This document shows, piece after piece, positions 5,383 to 19,165 of a stretch of 19,386 nucleotides of DNA. The position numbers and the translations under genes were made by a program. This DNA is from Pseudomonadota bacterium (GTDB taxonomy: Bacteria > Myxococcota > Bradymonadia > UBA4248). The stretch lies in NCBI GenBank assembly GCA_017613855.1, contig JAGACY010000364.1:1-19386 (forward strand). Reading direction: 5' to 3'. The notes under the pieces were generated by a model. It was not told the origin of the DNA. It ran no database searches and was given only the letters and a program-made list of their open reading frames with translations. Each line of letters begins with the position of its first letter. The first letter of the stretch is position 1.

Positions 5383-8300
5383 TCACTTCCAATAACAATA
5401 GAAATAACCTCGCAAATAAACATAATCCTCACTCTCCATGCGGCAGATATCGCTCTCGGTCGCATGATAGACAATTTCTAAAGATACAGTCGAGCCCTGT
5501 TTAGGCGTCTCAATATCGAGGTGCATGTTGGCGCGTTTCCCTGGCAAAATGACCTCCTCTGTTTTAACAAAATAAGTCTGCAGCGGTTTGTCTAACTTCT
5601 CTTCTTCGTACACATCGGCCTGAATGACCGTGCCGGCAGGAATCGGAAGCAGACCGTCATTTAAAATCGAGAAATAGTGTGATTCTTTCTCACGGCATTC
5701 GTGCGCATGCAACCAGGAATCTGAATATAATTCAAAATGCATTTCATAGTCTTTTGCATTTTTAATTGTATTCATGCGGAAGTTATTGAGTCCATCCGTT
5801 TTCCAGTTAATTCTCGCTTTTGCAGGAATGGTGCCGTCATCCAATATATTGGTTACACTGTAGGCATGCTGATTATATATTCTTCGCGTCGGCATCCACT
5901 TGCTCGCCTGCACCTTATCCTCAACAACCTGAGCACCGCTGTACACGCGAACGCCGCTGCTGCCCTTGCGTTTGGACGAAGGACCATCCAGCAGCGATTG
6001 TATGCATGCATCGACTTCCCCCTTGATATACTGCGCCGAACTCGGACAATTCTTACCGGCTTGTGTTCGATTCGAAGCGAGTACGATTTCGGCATGACCA
6101 TCATTATTAACATCAGCAACCACTGGATATTCATAAAGCGTCGCCGAAGTATTGCAAAGGCAAAAAACTGTATCGCCCTTAGCCCCATCATACACGCGCA
6201 AAAACAATTCATCCCCGTACAGAATCTCGGCTTTCCCATCGCCATTAAAATCGAAAACGGCACTGCCGGTCGAACGCGACGACTTATCCTGTACTTTATG
6301 TGACCACTTGACCTTGCCCTGGTAATCCAATGCCAGATAATGCGTGCCGCTGCTCAGCATAACCGACGGATGCTCATCATCATCGATGCGCGCAATCGTA
6401 GCCGGGCCTCCGCCCCACTCATCCAGCGTCCCCTGATGAACATCGACAGGTGCAGACCAAAAATCTGTGCCATCGTGTTTAAATGCCATCACCGTATGCG
6501 AAAGCGCACCCCACGACGTATCATGATAGGTCTTGCGTGTGACGACGATCTCTGGCTTGCCGTCGAGATCGAGATCCGCAATGGCAGGATAGCCGTCTGG
6601 TTGATCCGTCCGATGGTAAACGGCTGTCAGTGTGCCTTTTTTCAAATCGGCCCGATAAGCCACATTGCCGCCAATAAGTTCAGGCTTGCCATCATTGTCG
6701 ATGTCAGCTGCAATTGCATAGTTCGCCCCCGAAACGACATCATTCTCTGCATCGGCAATGAGCTTCCCTGTCTGGGCATTGTAAATCCGGTAACGTGCAT
6801 GCACTTCGGGCACGCCATCACCATCAAAATCGACAAGGCCAAACGCCGTATTGCCGCATTCCTCTGTCTCAGAATCGCCCTTCCAGATCAGCTTAGCCTC
6901 GTGATTGTACGCCACGAGATGATAATCCTCAGAGCAGGTAATGATTTGAAGCCCCGAAACATCGACACCGTTGTATTCCTTCACATCCTCGGGATAAAGC
7001 CGGCCAATCGCCACCTGACTGCTCGGGTCGGTCATCGATTTGCCATCGCTCGAAGCCAGCAGCTTACCGTCTTTCCCGCTGATAATGCGCAAAACGCCAT
7101 TGTTTTCCCAGTTCATGCTGTCCTTAAGCCAGCTGTTAAATACAATTTCGGGCATGGTGTCGCCGTTGATATCGGCCACCATCGGGGCGACGACAACATT
7201 AATGTGATCTGGGAAATCGCCGCCCGGAGCAAGTTCACCTTCGCCCCAGTGAAACAACAGATGAGGCTCAAATGCTCCACCGCTCGGCAAATCTTCGTCC
7301 TTACATTTTGTTTTTACACTTGGTCTCGGTATACACGTGTGCAAATCAAGAGCGCAATACTGTCCATCCGAACAAGCATAGTTGTCGTAACAAGAAACGC
7401 CTGGCTTAATACAGTTTTCATTAATGCAGAGCTCATCGCTGGCACAACACAAATAAACAGGCTCCATGAACGGGATGACACAGACAGTCTCATCCGGTTT
7501 ACATGGACTGCATATCCCGCCAAAACAAGCCCCCTCATACTCACAGCAAGCAGTATTGCATATCTTCCCGGTATCACAACAGACGTTGTTTGAAGATGCG
7601 CACAGCTGATCACCGGGACAATCCGCATTTTTCATGCAATCCACTTTTGTACAGGCGTGGTTTTGACAGATATGGAGTTCCGGACAGTGCGCATCCTGCG
7701 TGCATTCCACCTTTTTACACTGATTATGTTCCCAGCAGATAGATTTTTCAGGACAGTCTTTGTTATTTTTGCATTCCACTTCCACACACTGATTGTCACG
7801 ACAGACATGTTTGTCCGGGCATTGCGAATCGGTACCGCATCCAAGACATTCACCAAAATAACAGACCAATTCCCCCGGGCAATCGGAATCTTTCTTACAG
7901 CCGTCCTTTGGGCCAGGCATGCAGATGCCATCCGTGCAGACATTGCCATCACCACAGTCGAGGTCTGCCGTACATTCGGGCGCATCCGGTTTGGCTACGC
8001 AGTTGCCAGAATCACAAATCTGGCCTTCAGAGCAATCCGCATCGACCGTGCACTCGGGTTCATCCGGTTTGGGAACGCAGTTGCCCGAATCACAAATCTG
8101 GCCTTCAGAGCAATCCGCATCGACCGTGCACTCGGGTTCATTCGGTTTGGCTACGCAATTGCCCGAATCACAAATCTGACCTTTGGAACAGTCACCATCG
8201 ACCGTGCATTCGGACGCATCCGGGTTGGCTACACAGTTGCCCGAATCACAAATTTGGCCTTTGGAACAGTCACCATCGGCCGTGCACTCGGCCACACTGT

Positions 8301-8547
8301 TCTGAGGTGTACAAACATGATTAACACAGATTGGGGCTACCCCCGGACAATCGGTATCGATCGTACAAACATTCGTCACGCAGACTAAATTTTTACAGAG
8401 CATGCCATCAGGGCATTCGCCATTCAGTTGGCAAGGAATAGAAGCCCCTTCGTCTCCGTCTTTAACGGCGTGAACGTCATCGCGGCAGGCACTCAAACTC
8501 GCCATTGCTGCAACCAAAACACATAAACAAGATTTGGCGATTTTCAT
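5383..8547 (-). CDS. Large lipoprotein: cysteine-rich module array plus FG-GAP/VCBS calcium-type propeller
   Basis: 1054 residues. MKIAKSCLCVLVAAMASLSA-C21 is a lipoprotein signal peptide (lipobox LSAC), and AGAGG lies a few bases ahead of the ATG. Residues about 39-410 carry many CxxDxDCxxGxxCxxxxC modules, including four almost identical 26-residue units (E87 to E191). Residues about 425-860 carry FG-GAP/VCBS-like blades with calcium-type loops: DINGDTMPEI (from 459), DFDGDGVPEV, DIDNDGKPEL, DLDLDGKPEI, DFNGDGKAEI and DVNNDGHAEI. The C-terminal 190 residues (TRRIYNQHAYSVTNILDDGT, then LNNFRMNTI) resemble the tail of FG-GAP proteins known from myxobacteria. Predicted role: surface-displayed adhesive or ligand-binding lipoprotein. 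Exact ligand unknown. Confidence 0.9.
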   Translation of the reverse strand: MKIAKSCLCVLVAAMASLSACRDDVHAVKDGDEGASIPCQLNGECPDGMLCKNLVCVTNVCTIDTDCPGVAPICVNHVCTPQNSVAECTADGDCSKGQICDSGNCVANPDASECTVDGDCSKGQICDSGNCVAKPNEPECTVDADCSEGQICDSGNCVPKPDEPECTVDADCSEGQICDSGNCVAKPDAPECTADLDCGDGNVCTDGICMPGPKDGCKKDSDCPGELVCYFGECLGCGTDSQCPDKHVCRDNQCVEVECKNNKDCPEKSICWEHNQCKKVECTQDAHCPELHICQNHACTKVDCMKNADCPGDQLCASSNNVCCDTGKICNTACCEYEGACFGGICSPCKPDETVCVIPFMEPVYLCCASDELCINENCIKPGVSCYDNYACSDGQYCALDLHTCIPRPSVKTKCKDEDLPSGGAFEPHLLFHWGEGELAPGGDFPDHINVVVAPMVADINGDTMPEIVFNSWLKDSMNWENNGVLRIISGKDGKLLASSDGKSMTDPSSQVAIGRLYPEDVKEYNGVDVSGLQIITCSEDYHLVAYNHEAKLIWKGDSETEECGNTAFGLVDFDGDGVPEVHARYRIYNAQTGKLIADAENDVVSGANYAIAADIDNDGKPELIGGNVAYRADLKKGTLTAVYHRTDQPDGYPAIADLDLDGKPEIVVTRKTYHDTSWGALSHTVMAFKHDGTDFWSAPVDVHQGTLDEWGGGPATIARIDDDEHPSVMLSSGTHYLALDYQGKVKWSHKVQDKSSRSTGSAVFDFNGDGKAEILYGDELFLRVYDGAKGDTVFCLCNTSATLYEYPVVADVNNDGHAEIVLASNRTQAGKNCPSSAQYIKGEVDACIQSLLDGPSSKRKGSSGVRVYSGAQVVEDKVQASKWMPTRRIYNQHAYSVTNILDDGTIPAKARINWKTDGLNNFRMNTIKNAKDYEMHFELYSDSWLHAHECREKESHYFSILNDGLLPIPAGTVIQADVYEEEKLDKPLQTYFVKTEEVILPGKRANMHLDIETPKQGSTVSLEIVYHATESDICRMESEDYVYLRGYFYCYWK
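7978..8289 (-). repeat. In-frame tandem repeat, four 78-bp units inside the FG-GAP lipoprotein gene
   Basis: Four 26-residue units of the form ECTxDxDCSxGQICDSGNCV, followed by a short Pro/Asp linker, lie at residues 87-190. The DNA copies are highly similar, so the array probably expanded recently by unequal exchange or slippage. Each unit keeps the frame and four cysteines, so copy-number change would alter stalk length without breaking the protein. Confidence 0.92.
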
Positions 8548-8553
8548 AACGAC

Positions 8554-8607
8554 CTCTATGGCTAATGAGATGCTTCTTTACTCTATGGCTAATGAGATGC
8601 TTCTTTA
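8554..8607 (-). repeat. 27-bp tandem duplication in the leader of the FG-GAP lipoprotein gene
   Basis: Two identical 27-bp units (8554-8580 and 8581-8607) lie directly upstream of the minus-strand start at 8547. Read on the minus strand each unit runs from GTAAAGAAGC or TAAAGAAGC to GCCATAGAG. The downstream unit ends in the AGAG that forms part of the AGAGG ribosome-binding site. It may be a duplicated operator or leader element. No confident -10/-35 pair was recognised in the remaining 8608-8727. Confidence 0.9.
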
Positions 8608-8727
8608 CACAGGCAACGCATCACTATCGCAATATACCATGCCATTATCCCAGATTAAAGAAGTGAATTCGTCTTCTGCCCCAATGACTTATGCTGAATG
8701 CTAAGACCAACACTCAAAACAGCAGAC

Positions 8728-8773
8728 AAAAAAAAGCCTGGCTCTGTCTACCTCCAGGTGAACAGAACCAGGC
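8728..8773 (-). terminator. Intrinsic terminator for the beta-propeller lipoprotein gene
   Basis: On the minus strand, GCCTGG-t-TCTGT pairs with ACAGA-g-CCAGGC across a 14-nt loop, followed by eight T (plus-strand A run 8728-8735). It lies 45 bp past the stop codon at 8819. An additional inverted repeat, TTGATGAT (8785-8792) and ATCATCAA (8815-8822), overlaps the stop codon but has a long loop and no T tract. Confidence 0.9.
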
Positions 8774-8818
8774 AATCCTATAGGTTGATGATTTATAAAT
8801 GATATCAATAATTCATCA

Positions 8819-11017
8819 TCAATACTTAATCACGCCAAATGACTTATCGGGATCGTTGGCATCACTGGCCTTCAGGCCATGATTCGAGATGGTGTAGATA
8901 TAGGCATCTTTGTCATAAACGCCCGCCGTCTTGAAGTAAAAGCGGGAACGGTTAACCGACGTCCACCAATGTTTTTCATCCCCTACGAGATCCGCATGAT
9001 CGACGCCGCCGAGGAATTCAAAATCCGAATCCGGTTTGACGCGATAGACAAACATGCCGGAGAAACGTTCATAAGAATGAGAATGATCCTTATAGGAATG
9101 AGACCATTTACGGATATTAACGGGAATTGCCAGCAACCCTGAACCTTCATGGTATTGGAAAGCATGATGGTTGTACATTGCGTCGGACCAGCCATACGAA
9201 CCGGATGATGTCTCACCATCATATTCGTATTTCTCCTCATTGATCTTCGTCTGATATTTCAAGACCGGATTAGCCGGATTCGAAACATCGTACAGATCGA
9301 GCTTCATTCCATTGAGATTGCCATCATCATCTCCATCCTCACCAATCGTGAGCAAATGATCTTTGCCAACGGGATGAATATAAGAGGAATAGCCATTGAT
9401 CTTGAGCTCACCGGTCTGTTTGGGATTGGCCGGATTGGACAAATCGAACACAAAGAGCGGGTCTGTATTTCTGAAGGTCACGACATAACCCCTGTCGCCG
9501 ACCATGCGGGCAGAATAGATGCGCTCATTCTTGCCAAAGCCCTCGACAAAACCTGTCTGCGTCATGACGCTCGGTGTATTGATATCCAAAACGGAAAGTT
9601 TATGTCCCTTTTCGGAAGCGTTCCACCACCGGTTCTCACCCGAAAAGACGCGCAGATGATCCTTATACTCGCTGTAATAGAATGAATCATTGGCAATGCC
9701 GTTGATCTCGGCCGAATTGATATATTGGACATCGCCCTGCTGATTGCCGAGGTTAAAGTGATGAATGTGCGTATAATTCTCGCATTCATCTGCACCACAG
9801 GACCACCACCAGTTATAGCTGAACGAAGAAATATATAAATTCTTTTGAGAAGCATAGACCAACCAGCCATCATCAGCAATGGCCGTTGCCTGATAATTCT
9901 CGTAATTGCTGCCGGTAAATTCCGAAACCAACAGGAAGCCTTCCTTCTGGGATGCGACGGCAGGAATGTACAAATCCGTGCAGCCAACGGCCGGACGAAC
10001 GGTTTTGCCATCATAATAATTTGGCCAGTTGGGCGCTTCGAGCGTCGGATATTTCTCATCTAACCAGGCACGAATAGCAGGAAGGTATTGCGCGATATGT
10101 TCATCACGCTTATTGTACCATTCTTCTTCTGCCTGATAATAAGCACTCCATTCTTCAGACGACCAGTCACTATGTCGGAAATTCTCGTCATCGTACGGAT
10201 CATAGAATTTGGGCACGCCGGGAATATCTTCCTTTGAAAGTTTATAGGCATCATACCAATTGTAAGTTGGAGTCGCCGAAGATACGAGATGAAGTCTGTT
10301 GTCAATGAGACGTGCATCAACAAACTCGCCTTCCAATTGATGTCTCTTAAGGAGTTTGGGAGAGGAAGGATTCGATACATCAAAGATACGGACGTTGACA
10401 AGGCCGGTATAATGGCCAAACCAGTCATCCTCGTTATCATAATGCCATATATGTCTCTGGCCAATATCAATGAGTTTTTTGTCATCCGTCAGGAAAATGC
10501 CGGCAGGAGAAAACCACGAGTCCGTATTCTGATTGTGATATTCAACTTTTTCACGTTCAATGGTGGCAACTTCTTTCATATCGGTGACAGGCCAAATCTT
10601 CGAAATATGGATTTCGTTATCACGAATTGTGTACATGTAATTGCCATCATTTTTGACCGTATCGAGTTCGTCGACACCGGCTTCCTGAACGTTGGTGGTC
10701 GTATACTCTCCGGCACTCTCTTCTTTTACGCTGCCTGGTTCTTCAGCTGCGCTCGGCTCAGCATCGACCGCAACGTCTTCCATCGGCCCCCAATAATAAT
10801 AACCTTCGAAGCGTTCTTTGGCTATGGCCATCGCCAGACCATCCAAAACATGGTTGCGATAATCATCGCAGCTCGCAGCCTTGGTCAAAGCAAGCTGTTT
10901 CGAGGTAATGTCAATCGGTTTATAACCGGAAAAACTGTTATTATCGTTTGAGTCACTGCAGGCACTCATGGCTGCGATGGCAGAAAGGGACAGAGCAAAA
11001 ATGGCTAACTTTTTCAT
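8819..11017 (-). CDS. Secreted lipoprotein with PF09826-type beta-propeller domain
   Basis: 732 residues from the ATG at 11017. The frame is open to an ATG at 11170, but 11017 has AGAGGAAG about 5 nt upstream and begins the signal peptide MKKLAIFALSLSAIAAMSAC (lipobox MSAC, lipidated C20); the upstream 51 residues look like leader. At about residues 107-129 the sequence TTNVQEAGVDELDTVKNDGN is the hallmark entry of the 'Beta propeller domain' family (PF09826, COG4880; secreted, distantly WD40-like). Later blades show FDVSNPSSPKLL, FDLSNPANPKQTGELKINGY and YDVSNPANPVL, the family's 'DxSNPxxP' strands. A Glu/Ala/Ser-rich linker lies before the domain. Known members have no established biochemical activity. 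It has its own terminator (8728-8773), so it is probably monocistronic. Confidence 0.92.
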   Translation of the reverse strand: MKKLAIFALSLSAIAAMSACSDSNDNNSFSGYKPIDITSKQLALTKAASCDDYRNHVLDGLAMAIAKERFEGYYYWGPMEDVAVDAEPSAAEEPGSVKEESAGEYTTTNVQEAGVDELDTVKNDGNYMYTIRDNEIHISKIWPVTDMKEVATIEREKVEYHNQNTDSWFSPAGIFLTDDKKLIDIGQRHIWHYDNEDDWFGHYTGLVNVRIFDVSNPSSPKLLKRHQLEGEFVDARLIDNRLHLVSSATPTYNWYDAYKLSKEDIPGVPKFYDPYDDENFRHSDWSSEEWSAYYQAEEEWYNKRDEHIAQYLPAIRAWLDEKYPTLEAPNWPNYYDGKTVRPAVGCTDLYIPAVASQKEGFLLVSEFTGSNYENYQATAIADDGWLVYASQKNLYISSFSYNWWWSCGADECENYTHIHHFNLGNQQGDVQYINSAEINGIANDSFYYSEYKDHLRVFSGENRWWNASEKGHKLSVLDINTPSVMTQTGFVEGFGKNERIYSARMVGDRGYVVTFRNTDPLFVFDLSNPANPKQTGELKINGYSSYIHPVGKDHLLTIGEDGDDDGNLNGMKLDLYDVSNPANPVLKYQTKINEEKYEYDGETSSGSYGWSDAMYNHHAFQYHEGSGLLAIPVNIRKWSHSYKDHSHSYERFSGMFVYRVKPDSDFEFLGGVDHADLVGDEKHWWTSVNRSRFYFKTAGVYDKDAYIYTISNHGLKASDANDPDKSFGVIKY

Positions 11018-11268
11018 GGTGCTTCCTCTTTTTGACGTAAAAAAGTGTAAAAAAAAACCCAACATCCATGTCATGGGATGGATACAAAACGATCCAAAAC
11101 ATCGCTTCGTGTCCATCTTTTTGAAATCCCTGTGCCAAGTAGATAAAAAAAGCGTCCATTTGTAAACCATTGTTCCATAAGAACAATTTGCTCATCAGAA
11201 TGGCATGTGGATAAACAAACCGCACGGGGTATGACTTTCGTGTCGTACGGGCTGACATATTTGTCATG
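11018..11268. other. Upstream region of the beta-propeller gene, no gene recognised
   Basis: The stretch contains poly-A/T tracts just upstream of the ribosome-binding site of the minus-strand gene starting at 11017, presumably with its promoter, but no convincing -10/-35 pair was identified. The frame of the downstream gene stays open here to 11170, yet no plausible signal peptide or ribosome-binding site supports translation of this part. Confidence 0.5.
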
Positions 11269-11340
11269 GTGGCACCGGCTATCGACCTGTGCGGTCGATA
11301 CGCCGTGCCACGCGCCTATGCCTGCGGCATACGGCGCGTG
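11269..11340 (+). repeat. Second pair of adjacent bulged hairpins
   Basis: Hairpin A: GTGGCAC-c-GGC-TATCGACC (11269-11287) pairs with GGTCGATA-c-GCC-GTGCCAC (11293-11311). Hairpin B: CACGCGCC-TATGCC (11309-11322) pairs with GGCATA-c-GGCGCGTG (11326-11340). Each again has TAT...ATA flanking the loop side and an unpaired C after ATA; A and B share three bases. An ATAATATATA tract follows. Base sequence differs from the 5084-5147 pair while pairing is kept. The neighbouring 11341-11485 is AT-rich with nothing recognised. Confidence 0.85.
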
Positions 11341-11485
11341 ATAATATATATTTTGATTCTATTCAATGAGTGTAGATATTTTATTCGTTGATAATCGCCA
11401 TTCCGGCTTATATTGTAGCTCTTAGTTTATATAGGTTATGATAAAGCCATGAACCAAAATCGTTCTAAAATCCATAAACTCTCCA

Positions 11486-11506
11486 CTCAAAGCTCAAAGC
11501 TCAAAG
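11486..11506. repeat. Short heptamer array, three copies of CTCAAAG
   Basis: Three perfect CTCAAAG units (11486-11506) lie 16 bp from the stop codon of the minus-strand gene at 11523. It is a further example of the 7-bp-period arrays seen at 2850-3323, with a different word. Confidence 0.85.
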
Positions 11507-11522
11507 CTTATATATACTGCAC

Positions 11523-13166
11523 TTAGTCTTTATCTGCACAAATCTGTTCACTTTTTTTGCAGTAGCCTGAAGCACAGTTGGAATCAACATAGCAATGCTT
11601 TCCATTTTCAGCGGCAGGTTCACAATAACAATTCATGAAAGAAAGGTCACAGTTCAACACCGCATCGCCTTTATCGATATTACTATACCCCGATGAAACA
11701 CTATCATACTCACATCTGCCCGAAGTGCATGCATAACTCGACGGACATTTTTCCTGATTCTTTAATTTTTGAGCACATTTCCCTTTGGAAGAATCATATC
11801 CTGTACAATACAGCCCATCCATACATTCTTCATTTTCATGACACGAGGCATTCAACTTTTTGGTCGGATAGCACAAAGTTCCCCACGATTTATCATTGCC
11901 GCAATAATAATCTTTCCCGCATTCGCTGCTCTCGGAGCACTTGCAATAACCCGTCTCGCCACAACCATAATCACAACTTACCGAACTGTCACAGCTGATG
12001 CCGACCTCACATTTGCTTGTCGTGCAAAAACCACTGCAACAATAGTGTCCAAAACTGCAATCCGTATCCCTATAACACGCGGTACCTACGGTCTCGACCG
12101 GAATACAATGACTTGCACGACAAACGTAGTAGGCTTCGACACATCCGACGATTTCACATTGATCGGAGCATTTTCCCTGATAACAGAGACCTGTTTCGCA
12201 CTCGGCATTTTTGGCACATTCCTGATTAACCGCTTTGTTGCCCAGACCGTTTTTATTGGAAGAGAGCTCCCCATCCCCCGAAGCGGCGCACTGATTGTCG
12301 ACACACAAATTGCTTTCACATGTATTGTTCGTTACACAGGATTCATTGACATCCGCCCCCTGCGAGCCATCCCAGTTGATGGGACGGCAGACGCTGTTTT
12401 GGTAGCAGTTTCCGCTTTCACACTGGGTGTCTGCACTACACGATGCACCATTGGCGAGTTTGGTCTGCGCTTGGCTGTCTGTCGCACGACAAACGTAATC
12501 TACACAATAACCGCTTGCACATTCGGTGTTGTCGATACAGCCCCTGCCATTGGCTTTTTGGGCATCCTCTGCATTGGCCGTTGCCTGACAGATCCTTGAT
12601 ACACAGTGTTCGCTTATGCAATCTGAATCTTTCTCACATAAACTGCCATTCGCATATTTAACCTCATCGTCGTCGCCTAAGGAACTACAGATGTTCCCGA
12701 TGCAATGCCCGCTCTTGCATTCCTTATCTGCAGAGCATGATTCACCATCCGCGATGGTTCCTTCGAGACCAGGAATATCAGGGGGCGTAACATCACCGGC
12801 AGAGGCACTGCAGATGTTCACTACGCAATGCCCGCTCTTGCATTCCTTATCTAAAGCACACAATTCACCATCCGCGAGGAGTACATCGACGCCCTGTAAA
12901 CCAGGATCCGCCGAATTTGCCACGCATAGCCCGGAAATGCACATATGGCTTGCACAATCCGAATCCAGCATACAAACAGCTCCATTCGGACTTTTGACAT
13001 TGGTTGCTCCATTGGGCATGCAAACATTGGATATGCAATTGTCGCTTGCACAGTCTGCATTTTTTGCACACACCTCGCCGTTTCTAACCAAACGGACGCT
13101 TTCCGAATCGCACCCCGCAAGCCAAAGAACGGCACCAAATAGAAATAAGCGTTGATATATCTTCAT
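11523..13166 (-). CDS. Cysteine-rich repeat lipoprotein
   Basis: 547 residues. MKIYQRLFLFGAVLWLAGC is a lipoprotein signal peptide (lipobox LAGC, C19, Asp at +2), and GAGGAG lies 6 nt ahead of the ATG. The mature part carries about nine units of the form (N/D)GxxCxxxxxCxSxxCxxxxC, for example NGEVCAKNADCASDNCISN and DGELCALDKECKSGHCVVN, then more irregular cysteine modules (CYRDTDCSFGHYCCSGFC; CHENEECMDGLYC) to the C-terminus. No enzyme or propeller domain is present: it looks like a disulfide-bonded stalk or adhesin-like surface protein, related in style to the N-terminal part of the 5383-8547 protein. Two 42-residue units (about 12702-12855) are nearly identical at DNA level. It is divergent from the gene at 13478/13507. 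Function unknown. Confidence 0.88.
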   Translation of the reverse strand: MKIYQRLFLFGAVLWLAGCDSESVRLVRNGEVCAKNADCASDNCISNVCMPNGATNVKSPNGAVCMLDSDCASHMCISGLCVANSADPGLQGVDVLLADGELCALDKECKSGHCVVNICSASAGDVTPPDIPGLEGTIADGESCSADKECKSGHCIGNICSSLGDDDEVKYANGSLCEKDSDCISEHCVSRICQATANAEDAQKANGRGCIDNTECASGYCVDYVCRATDSQAQTKLANGASCSADTQCESGNCYQNSVCRPINWDGSQGADVNESCVTNNTCESNLCVDNQCAASGDGELSSNKNGLGNKAVNQECAKNAECETGLCYQGKCSDQCEIVGCVEAYYVCRASHCIPVETVGTACYRDTDCSFGHYCCSGFCTTSKCEVGISCDSSVSCDYGCGETGYCKCSESSECGKDYYCGNDKSWGTLCYPTKKLNASCHENEECMDGLYCTGYDSSKGKCAQKLKNQEKCPSSYACTSGRCEYDSVSSGYSNIDKGDAVLNCDLSFMNCYCEPAAENGKHCYVDSNCASGYCKKSEQICADKD

Positions 13167-13381
13167 TTTGTCTCCTCATATCGAAATCCAGAAATGCCTA
13201 ACGGTACAGACCTTTTACGCAGGGACGCTGCATGCCGCAAAAAATATGCCAATTCAATTCGTCGCATATCATAATGGAATCACACAGTGCCCCCGGCGTT
13301 GCCTGAGGCTCTTGATATAAAACGCCTACGGCATTTAAAGGTAAGTAGTACCAGCACATCCCCAAAAAACGCCCAAAGAGT
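13167..13381. other. Intergenic stretch between divergent lipoprotein genes, no gene recognised
   Basis: A small minus-strand open frame (13198-13440) crosses it, but it overlaps the strong plus-strand promoter, lacks a ribosome-binding site and resembles no known family, so it is not called. The promoter of the minus-strand gene starting at 13166 must lie here, but no clear hexamers were found. Confidence 0.5.
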
Positions 13382-13410
13382 TTGTTATTCCAAATGTACT
13401 TAGCTATAAT
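13382..13410 (+). promoter_or_regulatory. Sigma-70-type promoter of the poly-G lipoprotein gene
   Basis: TTGTTA (13382-13387) and a perfect TATAAT (13405-13410) are separated by 17 bp. Transcription would start near 13417, giving a leader of about 60 nt before the ATG at 13478. The TTGTTATTCCAA box, the AAAGCCGTTTT just after the -10 and the ACAACA-AAGGAGAAA ribosome-binding region recur in the same order ahead of the paralog at 16115, so the whole control region is duplicated with the gene. Confidence 0.8.
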
Positions 13411-13477
13411 AAAAGCCGTTTTTGGAATCGTGTATCCCAAAACACGCTACAAACTCACAACATAAGGAGAAACTTGA

Positions 13478-13531
13478 ATGAAAGAGACAATTGAATTCAC
13501 AACTACATGTGTGACAGAGGGGGGGGTGTAG
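13478..13531 (+). other. Start-proximal 17-codon frame carrying the real ribosome-binding site
   Basis: AAGGAG at 13464-13469 is spaced 8 nt from the ATG at 13478, an ideal arrangement, and aligns with the start of the paralog (ATG 16115). The frame encodes MKETIEFTTTCVTEGGV and stops at TAG 13529-13531, just after the G run. It is one base out of register with the main frame (13507-15912). One added G, or a -1 slip, fuses it to the lipoprotein: it is best read as the true N-terminus of that gene in an out-of-frame state, not as a separate peptide gene. Confidence 0.75.
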
Positions 13532-15912
13532 GTAAAAGAGTATCCGCTCACCAAAAATGCATTTATGCTGCAATTCTTGGCGCTGTCCTGTTTGCTGCTG
13601 GCTGCAGCGATGACAGCAATGGTGATAAAAAAGGATGCGGTGAAAACGAAATAGAGAGCAATGGCGTGTGTGTCTGCGATACTGCGACAAATTATTATGG
13701 CACACCAGGAAGCTGTATACTCTGCGAAGGTGAACACAAAATTGTCAAAGATAACAATTGCGTTTGTGATGACAATGGTTTCGAAGACGATGGCAATGGA
13801 GGATGCAAAGCCAAAACATCATCCTTAAGCTGCGGCGATCACGAAAAAGAGAGCGAAGGTGCATGTGTCTGTGACAATGATGCCAAATATTATGGCTCTG
13901 CAGGAAGCTGTGCACTTTGCGAGGGCGAACACAAAACCGTCAAAGATAACAGCTGTGTTTGTGAAGATAACTTCGAAGATGACGGCAACGGCGGATGCAA
14001 AGAAAAAGACGCGGTGGAATGCGGCGAAAATGAGAAAGCTGGCGACGATGGCTGTGTCTGCGATAACGATGCCAATTACTACGGCGAAGCAGGAAGCTGC
14101 GCACTCTGCGAGGGCGAAAACAAAGTCGTCAAGGAGAATGCCTGCGTTTGCGATGATGGTTACGAAGACGACGGCAACGGCGGGTGCAAAGAAGCAGCTT
14201 CAGAATGCGGCGAGAATGAGAAAGCTGGCGACGATGGCTGTGTCTGCGATGGCGACAAGGGTTACTATGGCGAAGCAGGAAGCTGCACGCTCTGTGAAGG
14301 CGAAAACAAAGTCGTCAAGGAGAATGCCTGCGTTTGTGACGATGGTTATGCAGACGATGGCGATGGTGGGTGCAAAGCCGCATGCGGTGAAAACGAAATA
14401 GAGAAATATGGTGTCTGTGCCTGCAATGACGAAGCCAATTATTATGGCGAAGCAGGAAGCTGCCAGCTCTGCAGCGGTGATCACAAAGTCATCACGGGGA
14501 ACGATTGCGTCTGTGACGACGGCTACGAAGATGACGGCAAGGGTGCATGCCAACTCAAATGTGCCGAACACGAAAAAGTAAGCAAGGATGCATGCGTTTG
14601 CGATGATGCAGCCAAATATTATGGCGAATCGGGAAGCTGCCAGCTTTGCGATGGCACTGGCCAGATCATCAAGGATAACAGCTGCATTTGTGATGCATCC
14701 AAACACCTGGTGGCTGGTTCTGCGGGCACGCATGCGATTTCCTGTGTATGTGATGCAGCCAGCAAGTATTATGGCACAGCAGGCAGCTGCCAGCTTTGCA
14801 CGGGAGATCACAAGATCATCATTAATAACAGCTGCGTCTGCAATTCGTCAGAAGGCTACGAAGATGATGGCAAAGGCGGATGCAAGAAAATCGCAGAATG
14901 CGTTTCGGGCGCAACGAGATGCGGCACAGGAAGTAATGCCAATAGCCTGCAGACATGCAACAGCGATGGGCAATACGGGACTTTCGTAGATTGTAAATCA
15001 GAGAACAAACACAAGATTTGCGGTCCTGATCCACTGTCAGGAGGAAAAGATAATTGTGTATGTGAAGAAACAAACATGTGGACCCATAATGACGCAGGCG
15101 AATGTGTTTGTAATACTGCCAATCATTGGTTTAAGACTACCGATGGTGAATGCGAATGCAATTTCAACGAAGGATATCAATCGGATGGTAAAGGTGGCTG
15201 CGCATGTACTCACCCACGATTCTATCTAAACGGTGGTGTGTGCACCAAATGCAAATATACACTTACAGAGAGTGAATGTATCAACAAGGTCGGCGATATC
15301 ATCTCCTTTGGCAAATATCCTCAGGCGACCTCAACCTCAGAACCAATCAAATGGCGCGTAATCGATATTAATACATCGACCAAGAGCGTTCTGTTGCTGT
15401 CAGAATACGTCATTGATGGCCAAAAATATTATAATGTAACAGATCACTCAAAAGCACAAAGCAAGTGGATTCCGTCTGATCTTAAGCAATGGCTGGAAAA
15501 CGATTTTAAAAACAAGGCCTTCAGCAGTCTCGAAAAGGTCCGCATCGATCAGGCTAAACATGATTCTACCGGCAATTCCCAGGTAGACCCCAATCCTCCA
15601 CATAACTATAAAAATAATGAGGGAGCCAATTTTGACAATATCACGCTGCTTGCTTTCAAAGAGGTTTTGAATTATTTGCCAACGGATGCAGATAGAAAAA
15701 CCACTGCAACCAAATATGCGCTCGATCAATTGGGATCATCCAGTTATAAATGCTGGGGTACCCGTAGTCCAATCGCTAACGACAGCCTGCACTACTTTGC
15801 GTGCATTGATAAATCCGGAACTTATGAAACAAGTAGTGGAACGTTAACGAGCGAACAAGCAAATTACAAAGTAGCTATCCGACCTGCAATTTGGGTTAAA
15901 TATTCAGAATAA
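13507..15912 (+). CDS. Surface lipoprotein: eight-cysteine module array plus C-terminal DUF6273 domain; start region out of frame
   Basis: The main frame opens at ATG 13507 (801 residues), which has no ribosome-binding site; the likely genuine start is ATG 13478, one base out of frame (G8 tract between). The signal-peptide core ends AAILGAVLFAAGC (lipidated C33 from 13507). About seven roughly 60-residue modules follow, each CGENE...CxC...YYGxxGSCxLCxG...CxC..GYxDDGxGxC with eight cysteines. A variant segment (CVSGATRCGTGS) comes next. The C-terminal 210 residues (from about 590) match DUF6273: ISFGKYPQATSTSEPIKWRV, LLLSEYVIDGQKY, KQWLENDFKNKAFSSLEK and VAIRPAIWV. DUF6273 is common in surface proteins of gut bacteria and has no known activity. 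The module DNA is GC-richer than the DUF6273 part. Paralog: 16115-19165. Confidence 0.85.
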   Translation: MCDRGGGVGKRVSAHQKCIYAAILGAVLFAAGCSDDSNGDKKGCGENEIESNGVCVCDTATNYYGTPGSCILCEGEHKIVKDNNCVCDDNGFEDDGNGGCKAKTSSLSCGDHEKESEGACVCDNDAKYYGSAGSCALCEGEHKTVKDNSCVCEDNFEDDGNGGCKEKDAVECGENEKAGDDGCVCDNDANYYGEAGSCALCEGENKVVKENACVCDDGYEDDGNGGCKEAASECGENEKAGDDGCVCDGDKGYYGEAGSCTLCEGENKVVKENACVCDDGYADDGDGGCKAACGENEIEKYGVCACNDEANYYGEAGSCQLCSGDHKVITGNDCVCDDGYEDDGKGACQLKCAEHEKVSKDACVCDDAAKYYGESGSCQLCDGTGQIIKDNSCICDASKHLVAGSAGTHAISCVCDAASKYYGTAGSCQLCTGDHKIIINNSCVCNSSEGYEDDGKGGCKKIAECVSGATRCGTGSNANSLQTCNSDGQYGTFVDCKSENKHKICGPDPLSGGKDNCVCEETNMWTHNDAGECVCNTANHWFKTTDGECECNFNEGYQSDGKGGCACTHPRFYLNGGVCTKCKYTLTESECINKVGDIISFGKYPQATSTSEPIKWRVIDINTSTKSVLLLSEYVIDGQKYYNVTDHSKAQSKWIPSDLKQWLENDFKNKAFSSLEKVRIDQAKHDSTGNSQVDPNPPHNYKNNEGANFDNITLLAFKEVLNYLPTDADRKTTATKYALDQLGSSSYKCWGTRSPIANDSLHYFACIDKSGTYETSSGTLTSEQANYKVAIRPAIWVKYSE
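13519..13526 (+). repeat. Poly-G tract (G8), candidate phase-variation or slippage site
   Basis: Eight consecutive G lie between the ribosome-binding-site-supported ATG (13478) and the hydrophobic core of the signal peptide. In the frame of that ATG the tract reads G-GGG-GGG, a perfect slippery heptamer, followed by GTG and the TAG stop. With nine G the frame from 13478 joins the 801-codon frame. The paralog has no G run at the matching place (around 16151). Confidence 0.85.
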
Positions 15913-15928
15913 TCCTGTAATTTTGCAC

Positions 15929-16022
15929 GTGGGTATGGCTCGCTGTGGGGCGGCCACATTGGGCCGCCCCTACGCTCGCTTGGTTTTATTCCCATGGAGA
16001 TGGCTCGCCTTAGGGCGAGCCA
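15929..16022 (-). repeat. Palindromic dispersed repeat, one full and one partial copy, reverse orientation
   Basis: Read on the minus strand, 15929-15983 matches the 1806-1930 units: CCAAGCGAGCGTAGGGGC, then a GGGGCGGCC-caatgt-GGCCGCCCC palindrome, then GCGAGCCATACCCAC. The A/G to G/C stem changes keep pairing. A partial copy with its own hairpin (TGGCTCGCC 16001-16009, GGCGAGCCA 16014-16022) follows and ends one base before the -35 box of the next gene. It lies just after the DUF6273 gene's stop and probably terminates transcription between the paralogs. Confidence 0.85.
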
Positions 16023-16051
16023 TTGTTATTCCAATTGATTAAAAAAATATT
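16023..16051 (+). promoter_or_regulatory. Promoter of the DUF285 lipoprotein gene, copy of the 13382-13410 promoter
   Basis: TTGTTATTCCAA starts at 16023, as at 13382, and an AT-rich -10 (AATATT, 16046-16051, 17-bp spacer) replaces the perfect TATAAT of the first copy. The conserved AAAGCCGTTTT follows. The weaker -10 suggests lower basal strength. The ribosome-binding site AAGGAG (16103-16108) lies 6 nt before ATG 16115; an ATG at 16111 would give only a seven-codon frame. Confidence 0.65.
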
Positions 16052-16114
16052 AAAGCCGTTTTGGGGAACCATGTTCCTATAATTCGCAGCAAACGCACAA
16101 CAAAGGAGAAATGA

Positions 16115-19100
16115 ATGAGAAACGACCTGGCTAGCAACTACATGTATAACGGTGAAGTAGTATGCAAAGGTATATCCTCGCATAAAAAGTACATTTATGC
16201 CGCCATTTTCGGTGCCGTCCTGTTGGCTGCCGGATGCAGCGATGACAGTAGTTCCAACAAAAATGAATGCGGAGAACACGAAATAAACAGCAATGGCGCG
16301 TGTGTCTGCGATAGCACTGCAAATTACTACGGCACCCCAGGAAGCTGCGCGCTCTGCGAAGGCGAACACAAAGTCGTAAAAGATAACAACTGCGTTTGTG
16401 ATGATGGTTTCGAAGACGACGGCAACGGCGGATGCAAAGAAAAAACCACACCATTGACGTGCGGTGAGCACCAGGTCGAAAGCAATGGCACATGCGTTTG
16501 TGACACCGGCTACGAAGATGACGGCAACGGTGGATGCAAAGAAATAGACGCCGTAAAATGCGGCGAAAACGAGAAAGCCGATGGCGATGGCTGTATCTGC
16601 GATGGCGACAAAGGCTATTATGGCGATGCAGGAAGCTGCGCGCTCTGCGAGGGCGAAAACAAAGTCGTCAAGGAGAATGCCTGCGTTTGTGACGATGGTT
16701 ACGAAGACGACGGCAACGGCGCATGCAAAGAAGCAGCTTCAAAATGCGGCGAAAACGAGAAAGCCGGCGACGATGGCTGTATCTGCGATGGCGACAAAGG
16801 CTATTATGGCGAAGCTGGAAGCTGTACACTTTGCGAAGGCGAAAACAAAGTTGTTAAAGATAACAACTGCGTTTGCGATGATGAGTTTGAAGACGACGGT
16901 AACGGCGGATGCCAGAAAAAAACATCACCCGCGAAATGCGGCGATCATGAAATAGAAAGCGACAATGGTTGTGTCTGCGACAATGCAGCCAACTACTATG
17001 GCACGGCAGGAAGCTGCGTACTTTGCGAAGGTGAGCACAAAGTCGTCGGGGATAATGAATGCATTTGCGAGGTAGGCTATAAAGGCGAAGACACTTGTAT
17101 AGAAGATGTACCAGATCCCTGCGAAAACGTGAGCTGCGACGATCATGGCACATGTAAAAATAACGAAGGCGCTGCAGTTTGCGAGTGTAAAGCAGGGTTT
17201 GCCACAGATCCTAAGGATCAAACTCGCTGTATTAGCATTTGCGAGGGCATAACATGCGGCAATCATGGTGTCTGCTATGGGGAAACTGGCACGCCGGTTT
17301 GCGATTGTGAGTACACCTATAAGCTCGATCCAGAAAATGCATTAAATTGTGTACCAGACACATCTCACCCATGCTACAATAAAACCTGTGGTGACCATGG
17401 AACATGTACAGCCCCAACAGATAGCACTTTTTGGTGTCTATGTGACCCAGGATATATCTCAGATCCCAAGCATATAACATGCTGGGAGGATCCTTATTAT
17501 AATGATTATAATTTCAACCACATGAAGGACTCTGAAGAAACTGCACCGGATAGAGGTAAAGACTGCCGTGACAAATCGCTTCGCAACAGCTGCAGCGATT
17601 TTTGTGATAGTTTTATCGGCTATAAATGTTCGACCAAATGTACATCCGACAGCCAGTGTATCAGCGATGAATATTTTTGCAGAGATGATGGCAGGTGTGC
17701 ACCCAAGACCTTCCAAACAGTATGGGTCGTGACAGAACCAAATAGTACAATATACTTTTTTGGGAACAACGAACATAGAGAAGATAGTTGGACTCGTCAA
17801 TGCAATTATACAATTGACTGGGGAGATGGCAGCATGCCCTATAAAAATTTGAATAATTGCCTATTTAAAAGTATGCCTTCTCATACCTACGAAAAAGCGG
17901 GAGAGTATATTGTTTCCGTTTCGGGAGAAGTTGATGAATGGAAATGCATTGTTTCTAAAACGATCAATGCATGTGGTTGTGATTATGACCCATTCACAAA
18001 AAAATGTAATAATAAAGTTTATCTAACATCTGTTCTCAGCTTCGGGCCTGTCAGACTGGACTCTCATGCTTTTGCATACGCCGATAGATTAAATATGATT
18101 GGTAACAATGATATTCCAGACGCCAATCATACTAATATGGAGCATATGTTTTATCAAGCACTTAATTTTAATCAACCGATTGACCGCTGGGATACTTCCA
18201 AAGTAGAATCCATGCAATCCATGTTTGATGGGGCGAGCGCGTTTAATCAATCCATTGACGATTGGGACACATCTCATGTAAAAGACATGCGTTACATGTT
18301 TTCCGATGCGAAATCATTCAATCAGCCACTCAACGACTGGGACATGTCTAATGTAGCATACATATACAACATGTTTGATGGGGCAGAATCATATAACCAG
18401 CCGCTCAACAACTGGGACACTTCCAAAGTAGAAAGCATGGGCGGCATGTTTATGAATGCGAAATCATTCAATCAGCCACTCAACGACTGGGACATGTCTA
18501 ATGTAAAAGACATGAGCCACATGTTTGATGGGGCAGAATCATTTAATCAGCCGCTCAACAACTGGGACACTTCCAATGTAGAAGACATGGATTGCATGTT
18601 TATGTATGCGAAATCATTCGATCAGCCACTCAACGACTGGGACACGTCTAATGTAGAAGAGATGTTCTGCATGTTTTATGGGGCAGAATCATTTAATCAG
18701 CCGCTCAACAACTGGAACACGTCTAATGTAAGAGAGATGAGCTGCATGTTTGAGAATGCGAAATCTTTTAACCAACCCCTTAGCAATTGGAATACATCCA
18801 AAGTCAAAGCAATGGGATACATGTTTGCGGGGGCAGAATCATTTAATCAGCCGCTCAACAACTGGGATACTTCCAAAGTAGAAGCCATGTACAGCATGTT
18901 TAAGAATGCGAAATCATTTAATCGACCGCTCAATAACTGGAAAATGTCTAACGTTAAGTCCGCAAATTATATGTTTGAAAACGCAACTTCATTTGATCAG
19001 TCTCTTGAAAAGTGGGACGTACATAACATTTACAGTACCAATCTCTACTATCTTATGTTTTTAAAATCCGCATTATCCAAATCAAACTGGAAAAAAATGG

Positions 19101-19165
19101 TCACAGAAGGTTCAGACTGGTCAATGATGAATAAATCGAGATTGGGACTTCCTTCGAATTATTAA
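16115..19165 (+). CDS. Surface lipoprotein: eight-cysteine modules, EGF-like domains, PKD-like domain and DUF285 (BspA-like) repeats
   Basis: 1016 residues. A long n-region precedes the hydrophobic core and lipobox AAIFGAVLLAAGC (C41). Modules in order: five copies (the second shortened) of the eight-cysteine module shared with the preceding gene (about 50-333); three EGF-like domains starting DPCENVSCDDHGTC (about 333), ICEGITCGNHGVC (about 374) and HPCYNKTCGDHGTC (about 418); a further cysteine-rich stretch; a PKD-like domain (IDWGDGSMPY ... PSHTYEKAGEYIVSVSG, about 530-620); and twelve 25-residue MFxxAxSFNQPLNNWDTSNV repeats (678-977), the DUF285/PF03382 signature of BspA-type surface proteins. 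This set suggests an exposed adhesin or host/matrix-binding protein. The C-terminal half is AT-richer than the module half. No ligand can be named. Confidence 0.93.
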   Translation: MRNDLASNYMYNGEVVCKGISSHKKYIYAAIFGAVLLAAGCSDDSSSNKNECGEHEINSNGACVCDSTANYYGTPGSCALCEGEHKVVKDNNCVCDDGFEDDGNGGCKEKTTPLTCGEHQVESNGTCVCDTGYEDDGNGGCKEIDAVKCGENEKADGDGCICDGDKGYYGDAGSCALCEGENKVVKENACVCDDGYEDDGNGACKEAASKCGENEKAGDDGCICDGDKGYYGEAGSCTLCEGENKVVKDNNCVCDDEFEDDGNGGCQKKTSPAKCGDHEIESDNGCVCDNAANYYGTAGSCVLCEGEHKVVGDNECICEVGYKGEDTCIEDVPDPCENVSCDDHGTCKNNEGAAVCECKAGFATDPKDQTRCISICEGITCGNHGVCYGETGTPVCDCEYTYKLDPENALNCVPDTSHPCYNKTCGDHGTCTAPTDSTFWCLCDPGYISDPKHITCWEDPYYNDYNFNHMKDSEETAPDRGKDCRDKSLRNSCSDFCDSFIGYKCSTKCTSDSQCISDEYFCRDDGRCAPKTFQTVWVVTEPNSTIYFFGNNEHREDSWTRQCNYTIDWGDGSMPYKNLNNCLFKSMPSHTYEKAGEYIVSVSGEVDEWKCIVSKTINACGCDYDPFTKKCNNKVYLTSVLSFGPVRLDSHAFAYADRLNMIGNNDIPDANHTNMEHMFYQALNFNQPIDRWDTSKVESMQSMFDGASAFNQSIDDWDTSHVKDMRYMFSDAKSFNQPLNDWDMSNVAYIYNMFDGAESYNQPLNNWDTSKVESMGGMFMNAKSFNQPLNDWDMSNVKDMSHMFDGAESFNQPLNNWDTSNVEDMDCMFMYAKSFDQPLNDWDTSNVEEMFCMFYGAESFNQPLNNWNTSNVREMSCMFENAKSFNQPLSNWNTSKVKAMGYMFAGAESFNQPLNNWDTSKVEAMYSMFKNAKSFNRPLNNWKMSNVKSANYMFENATSFDQSLEKWDVHNIYSTNLYYLMFLKSALSKSNWKKMVTEGSDWSMMNKSRLGLPSNY
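18146..19045 (+). repeat. Twelve in-frame 75-bp DUF285 units arranged as alternating pairs
   Basis: Units of 25 residues start at MF (residue 678) and repeat every 75 bp. From the third unit on they alternate: NAKSFNQPLNDWDMSN-type units (18296 onward) and GAESFNQPLNNWDTSK-type units, giving a 150-bp higher-order period. DNA identity between same-type units is clearly higher than between neighbours (for instance the AAATCATTCAATCAGCCACT block at about 18310 and 18460). The array therefore seems to have grown by doubling a two-unit block. Confidence 0.93.

Follow-up and report, generated by a model that had tools for sequence, protein, structure and literature searches.

A tract of eight G between a strong start codon and a lipoprotein reading frame: a candidate frame switch

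How is a lipoprotein made when the only start codon with a Shine-Dalgarno (SD) sequence lies out of frame with it? This question is raised by a gene in the 19,386-nucleotide (nt) stretch of contig JAGACY010000364.1 analysed here (the window), where a tract of eight G (G8, 13519..13526, plus strand) lies between such a start and the signal peptide. On balance, the tract is probably a slippage-prone, contingency-type switch of frame near the start of a gene for a surface lipoprotein, with eight G as the unproductive state and a reversibility that is proposed. The window apparently comes from an uncultured gut bacterium.

The start region and its counterpart in a related genome

All features of the start region are on the plus strand. 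The SD sequence AAGGAG (13464..13469) stands 8 nt 5' of ATG 13478 and drives a short frame of 17 codons (13478..13531; MKETIEFTTTCVTEGGV), which with eight G ends at a TAG (13529-13531) right after the tract. The tract lies inside this reading frame, 41 nt 3' of the SD-equipped ATG, and its length falls within the range of at least 7-8 G/C units used for such tracts. Directly 3' of it comes TGTAGGTAA (13527..13535). The open frame of the lipoprotein has 801 codons (13507..15912) and is one base off the frame of ATG 13478. It starts 29 nt 3' of that codon, at its sole in-frame ATG (13507..13509), which is without an SD sequence. Upstream of ATG 13507, the body frame is closed by a TGA at 13492, and no ATG, GTG or TTG is found between the two. 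The product qualifies as a bacterial lipoprotein by its sequence pattern, a signal peptide with the lipobox IYAAILGAVLFAAG followed by Cys (FAAG before the cysteine, codon 13603-13605), and continues with Cys-rich repeats and a C-terminal DUF6273 domain. From ATG 13478 to the cysteine codon the distance is 125 nt, i.e., 2 modulo 3. Provided that translation begins at ATG 13478, the length of the tract determines if this start is in frame with the body. A sequence-only reading of this DNA had placed the SD sequence, both ATG codons, the G8, the TAG and the frame offset at these positions. Re-reading bore out all of them, together with the missing ribosome-binding site at ATG 13507 and the distances from the SD-equipped ATG to the shared signal-peptide bases (83 nt here, 78 nt in the paralog at 16115). 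This paralog (16115..19165, plus strand), a DUF285 lipoprotein, has its AAGGAG-ATG in frame and is without a G tract.

G8 is the longest run of G or C anywhere in the window. Runs of at least eight are expected 0.05 times for G and 0.11 times for C (first-order, from the window's own composition), and a single run of this length is by itself only mildly unusual. What counts is its site between a strong start and a signal peptide, plus the frame offset. In the proposed mechanism, DNA slippage would alter the tract one unit at a time. This would bring ATG 13478 into frame in some cells or strains, where the full lipoprotein would be made, and the 8-G state as found would give a low lipoprotein level at most.

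A second copy of the element is found in a related genome. G002:C58, a DUF285 lipoprotein gene of 1148 codons counted from an in-frame internal ATG, was reached in two ways, by homology (a search with the protein P0021) and by a search of 19 genomes for the SD-ATG-G8 pattern. Its layout is AAGGAG-ATG, ATGTGTGTCT, G8, CATGTAGGTAA, with a TAG that ends the SD frame right after the tract and with TGTAGGTAA in common with the window. The ATG is likewise 125 nt from the cysteine codon, so the frame offset is identical. When the flanks of the window tract were compared with those of 180 distinct tracts of at least seven G (loci L148 onwards), G002:C58 ranked first with a combined score of 47 (runner-up 37), and 0 of 2000 shuffles matched this score. 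Counted from the lipobox cysteine, the bodies are open for 769 residues in the window and 1111 in G002:C58, but they differ in domain content (DUF6273 and DUF285, respectively). The shared part is therefore the leader rather than the whole gene.

Two candidate start codons

The first of the two strongest rivals is constitutive translation. ATG 13507 would be the true start of a lipoprotein gene without an SD sequence, ATG 13478 would be a decoy or the start of a short upstream frame, and the G tract would be nothing more than codons of a conserved Gly-rich n-region. Taken together, this is rather unlikely. The sequence-only reading had, however, dismissed ATG 13507 too quickly. A body-frame peptide of the form M-x-x-[WRG]-G-G-[HG]-[VA]-G begins there (MCDRGGGVG in the window) and is found again in relatives, as MCVWGGHVG in G002:C58, as MQSGGGHVG at the annotated start of P0012 and as MYAWGGHAG inside P0015. 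ATG 13507 therefore stays a real rival start, and the recurrence weighs against a switch. The same is true of a later in-frame ATG in G002:C58 (MRNLF...), a possible start that makes this gene weaker as a clean copy. Moreover, an ATG at the equivalent place shares the body frame in the paralog at 16115 and in G002:C246, ATG 13507 is where the public protein record P0001 begins, and a signal peptide counted from there has 32 residues, closer to the median of 19 in the survey described below than one counted from ATG 13478.

On the other side, ATG 13507 is without an SD sequence, whereas a perfect one sits 8 nt before the other ATG, 29 nt upstream. The word ATGTGTG is kept as DNA and can be read as similar peptides in either frame. 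This makes both appear conserved at that point, and conservation there therefore leaves the frame undecided. The N-terminus of P0021 speaks for the upstream start. As annotated (MKSASLFTTIC), it aligns without gaps to the peptide from ATG 13478 (MKETIEFTTTC), with 6 of 11 residues identical, and the N-termini of 105 other lipoproteins with an SD start reach four identities at most. P0021 had been chosen by eye among the listed N-termini before scoring. This similarity supports predicted coding from ATG 13478. A protein search with residues 1-70 of P0012, in which five candidates were scored, found P0012 itself alone. A third out-of-frame case suggested by P0015 was left out of all counts, as codons are unknowable from a protein.

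A survey of lipoprotein starts also argues for ATG 13478. It covered 82 sources (81 contig pieces and the window, which was the given case and not drawn by the survey), in which a lipobox rule picked 174 lipoprotein genes. An in-frame SD start was present in 110 of these genes. It is rare for the best SD start to be out of frame with no in-frame start reaching the cut-off (4/174), and two of the four genes have a G8. They are the window gene, G002:C58, L187 (longest G/C run 4) and L192 (longest 3), and the in-frame ATG of L192 falls just below the cut-off. Five of the 82 sources had been selected for a G tract alone, and none of the four cases is among them.

Poly-C relatives and the remaining rivals

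The second strongest rival is one-way silencing. The tract would be prone to mutation without being a reversible switch, and a gene silenced by a change in length would go on to decay. It is distinctly unlikely for the window, but it bears directly on a second lipoprotein family, in which the tract is poly-C. G003:C411 and G004:C3 are homologs, and further copies of the family turned up by search. An AAGGAG or similar SD sequence precedes the ATG, AAGGAG itself in three of the six copies with a recognisable start. G004:C3 has C8 and is in frame for the 102 residues before its contig ends, G003:C411 has C9 and is out of frame (48 residues from the cysteine to the first stop), and G004:C96 has C7 and is also out of frame (204 residues). 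Two copies with an interrupted tract are in frame with long open bodies (843 residues in G002:C96, 800 in G003:C70). G003:C251 has C6, is out of frame and is itself degenerate (39 residues from the cysteine to the first stop), and G002:C321 is degenerate with no recognisable start. The C7, C8 and C9 copies differ in frame, so tract length goes with a frame change among close homologs. This variation was seen between genomes and paralogs of the poly-C family, not in the window's own gene. In G004:C96 (L398:2006-2008), a TGA stands at the place of a Cys codon in other repeats, and the frame is open for 664 codons beyond it. G003:C304, a broken copy that is no clear tract case, was not used.

Together with the G002:C58 element, the C7/C8/C9 family supports a predicted tract-length frame switch. 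The sequence-only reading had gone further and had the lipoprotein switched on and off stochastically; the frame switch gains from these comparisons, and stochastic, reversible switching stays a proposal. Every poly-C copy that is out of frame (G003:C411, G004:C96, G003:C251) has a broken body, which counts against a switch and lets one-way loss fit these copies. A 2025 review likewise describes, in the portion consulted, an accidental, mutation-prone tract of seven C that it sets apart from phase variation (PMC11868660). Against one-way loss at the window, the bodies of the window gene and of G002:C58 are still open over the lengths given above. It would also be unlikely for two fresh losses to leave both genomes with one and the same out-of-frame layout and with tract flanks that are alike.

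The next rival leaves the DNA unchanged. A programmed -1 shift of the ribosome, or slippage of the transcribing polymerase, at the G8 would yield the lipoprotein from ATG 13478, as one branch of the sequence-only reading had allowed. In the frame of this ATG, the heptamer G GGG GGG is immediately followed by GTG TAG, a slippery-site layout, and the count of eight G is the same in the window and in G002:C58. Nevertheless, no unusually stable structure lies downstream (z 1.39 for 13527-13600, z 0.81 for 13464-13600). The heptamer is not conserved in G002:C58, where the register is T GGG GGG GGC. A programmed -1 site, with a conserved slippery heptamer and a stimulatory structure, was hence not recognised here. 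The poly-C family, moreover, has other tract lengths and another base. Slippage of this kind is very improbable. Least probable of all is an assembly or sequencing error; homopolymers are error-prone on some platforms, but another assembly has the same offset at a G8 element like this one (G002:C58).

The proposed switch across genomes and lineage

A wider reading follows from the same material, and it is tentative, less probable than the switch itself. An uncultured, Myxococcota-like gut order might keep a few start-proximal poly-G or poly-C lipoprotein switches plus a DNA methylase split at a tract, which would amount to multi-locus phase variation. At least two lipoprotein families would take part, one of them with a portable ATGTGTG-G8-TGTAGGTAA leader before different bodies. 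The methylase is that of G002:C133 (L258:2056), where the frame changes at a G8 just before a PF01555 DNA methylase piece (E 4.4e-21). A G8 also splits the gene for a Cys-rich FG-GAP surface protein in G002:C337 (L275:2026, minus strand). Its upstream piece is Cys-rich, and its downstream piece, with FG-GAP repeats, matches the protein encoded at 5383-8547 of the window (E 3e-31) from just past the tract. An apparent split gene at a C8 in G002:C9 (L244) was rejected, as the stretch spans a run of N.

Such frame changes were sought by codon usage over 182 loci (1.27 Mb), with coding required on both sides of a tract. With flanks of 150 nt they were seen at 2/25 G/C tracts of at least eight, 1/20 A/T tracts of at least eight, 0/10 G/C tracts of seven, 2/92 A/T tracts of seven and 32/5007 random positions. 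With flanks of 240 nt the counts were 2/26, 0/20, 1/7, 2/86 and 45/5018, respectively. A strong out-of-frame SD-ATG ahead of a tract was found in 3/61 cases with at least eight G/C and 1/58 with at least eight A/T (counting tracts of either strand that are followed by coding sequence). The three are the window, G002:C58 and G003:C411, and all are lipoproteins. Like the frame changes in G002, this speaks for a switch. A strong in-frame SD-ATG preceded three tracts of each kind. Among the tract-centred loci of G001-G003, 10/113 tracts of at least eight G/C and 5/90 of at least eight A/T were start-proximal with coding downstream. The pattern SD-ATG-G8 was more frequent than its reversed control in 7 of 19 genomes, less frequent in four and equal in the rest. 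Most of its matches, those in G011 in particular, appear to be chance occurrences. G002:C246 (G6), G003:C246 (G7) and G003:C451 (C8) are in frame, show the presence of a tract there and no more, and were not used.

Several of these results weigh against a switch. G002 has 41 G/C runs of at least eight. Scaling the value expected for the window to 4.6 Mb gives about 39, and this relative therefore has no excess of the long mononucleotide tracts that mark a multi-locus phasome. A/T tracts of at least eight also gave one frame change at 150-nt flanks, and the frame changes at G/C tracts of at least eight both came from G002, with none from G001 or G003. The upstream piece of G002:C133 has no family match, and that of G002:C337 matches the window 5383-8547 protein weakly (best E 0.008). 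Just two of the ten start-proximal G/C tracts in G001-G003 belong to lipoproteins. Finally, the shorter patterns exceed their reversed controls moderately (overlapping matches counted), with 76 vs 39 for SD-ATG-G7 in nine genomes and 29 vs 19 for SD-ATG-C7 in eight.

Other start-proximal tracts were met on the way. In G003:C332, G004:C128, G005:C20 and G006:C31 (L099, L096, L098 and L108), a leader with SD-ATG, poly-G (8, 8, 9 and 11 units, respectively) and GAATATAATTC precedes unlike downstream sequences; in G003 and G006 the gene start is helicase-like by eye. In G003:C257 (L424:938, minus strand), a C11 comes shortly after GGAG-ATG. An apparent secreted protein is in frame with a second ATG, which adjoins the tract, but not with that first one. 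G001:C19 (L282, minus strand) has a G8 that may mark a frame change in mid-gene; the reasonably good SD-ATG that precedes it by 68 nt does not share the frame of the downstream coding sequence. In the window itself, 5383-19165 holds five adjoining genes whose products are putatively exported or lipoproteins (FG-GAP/DUF7107, Beta_propel PF09826, Cys-rich, DUF6273 and DUF285).

The nearest relatives found by genome scan are a metagenome-assembled genome (MAG) from water-buffalo rectum (L001) and Myxococcales bacterium UBA4248 (L002), both of one order. This order, that of G001 (the genome of L001), was represented by nine genomes (G001-G009), and protein similarity suggests that the window belongs to it. 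In the literature searched, UBA4248 appears in one paper, a MAG announcement. Viral contigs held no relative of the window lipoprotein and no match to the G8 element; a looser pattern gave three exact matches there, with no lipoprotein start in the stretch examined. Plasmids gave no match. An Rfam search of 13200-13700 returned nothing, and a further Rfam search, of five loci, returned five matches below their gathering scores in two of these loci (L098 and L242), which were taken as chance. A PDB sequence search with the C-terminal domain gave no match. The sequence-only reading knew of no described case in the lineage, and literature searches on phase variation in Myxococcota, and on Deltaproteobacteria with simple sequence repeats, found no report either.

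The kind of switch is already known, and the window is a new candidate case of it in a lineage for which no report was found. The closest model is Campylobacter jejuni. In its contingency genes, as the consulted part of one study has it, the length of intragenic poly-G/C tracts sets the frame, with a cut-off of seven or more units (PMC6321876). The window likewise has an intragenic G/C tract, of eight units, which would act on frame. Many C. jejuni contingency genes act on the surface, according to an extract of a second source (PMC8437040). Unlike in C. jejuni, the tracts described here lie in the first 15 codons of lipoproteins, are poly-C in one family and are candidates for switching, and the relative tested, G002, has no tract excess. 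In being start-proximal, with a very short peptide as the out-of-frame state, the window type is like the 5' homopolymeric tracts by which inlA and other genes are inactivated. Those tracts, however, are poly(A) or poly(T) in the passages seen (PMC2831843), whereas the window type is G or C. The frame change at the G8 before the methylase domain of G002:C133 is like that of the phase-variable DNA methyltransferases treated in the available part of PMC6265453. Unlike them, G002:C133 is a candidate from one genome only, with the unmatched upstream piece.

The Mycoplasma Vlp and Vpma systems, as summarised in the sections consulted of the 2025 review (PMC11868660), are also lipoprotein families with variable expression, which in the present case is a prediction. 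Vpma uses site-specific recombination (PMC11868660), and such a feature was not looked for at the window. What is switched here would be a surface lipoprotein. Its C-terminal domain is similar to part of an IgA peptidase and, weakly, to lectin-like domains. In the same sections, the review names as a major open question why multi-locus phase-variable genomes seem confined to pathogens, and if database bias is the cause (PMC11868660). If true, the wider reading would mean that a lineage other than the usual pathogens has multi-locus phase variation. With a candidate set in uncultured bacteria, one relative of which comes from buffalo rectum, the review's question becomes testable with existing metagenome reads.
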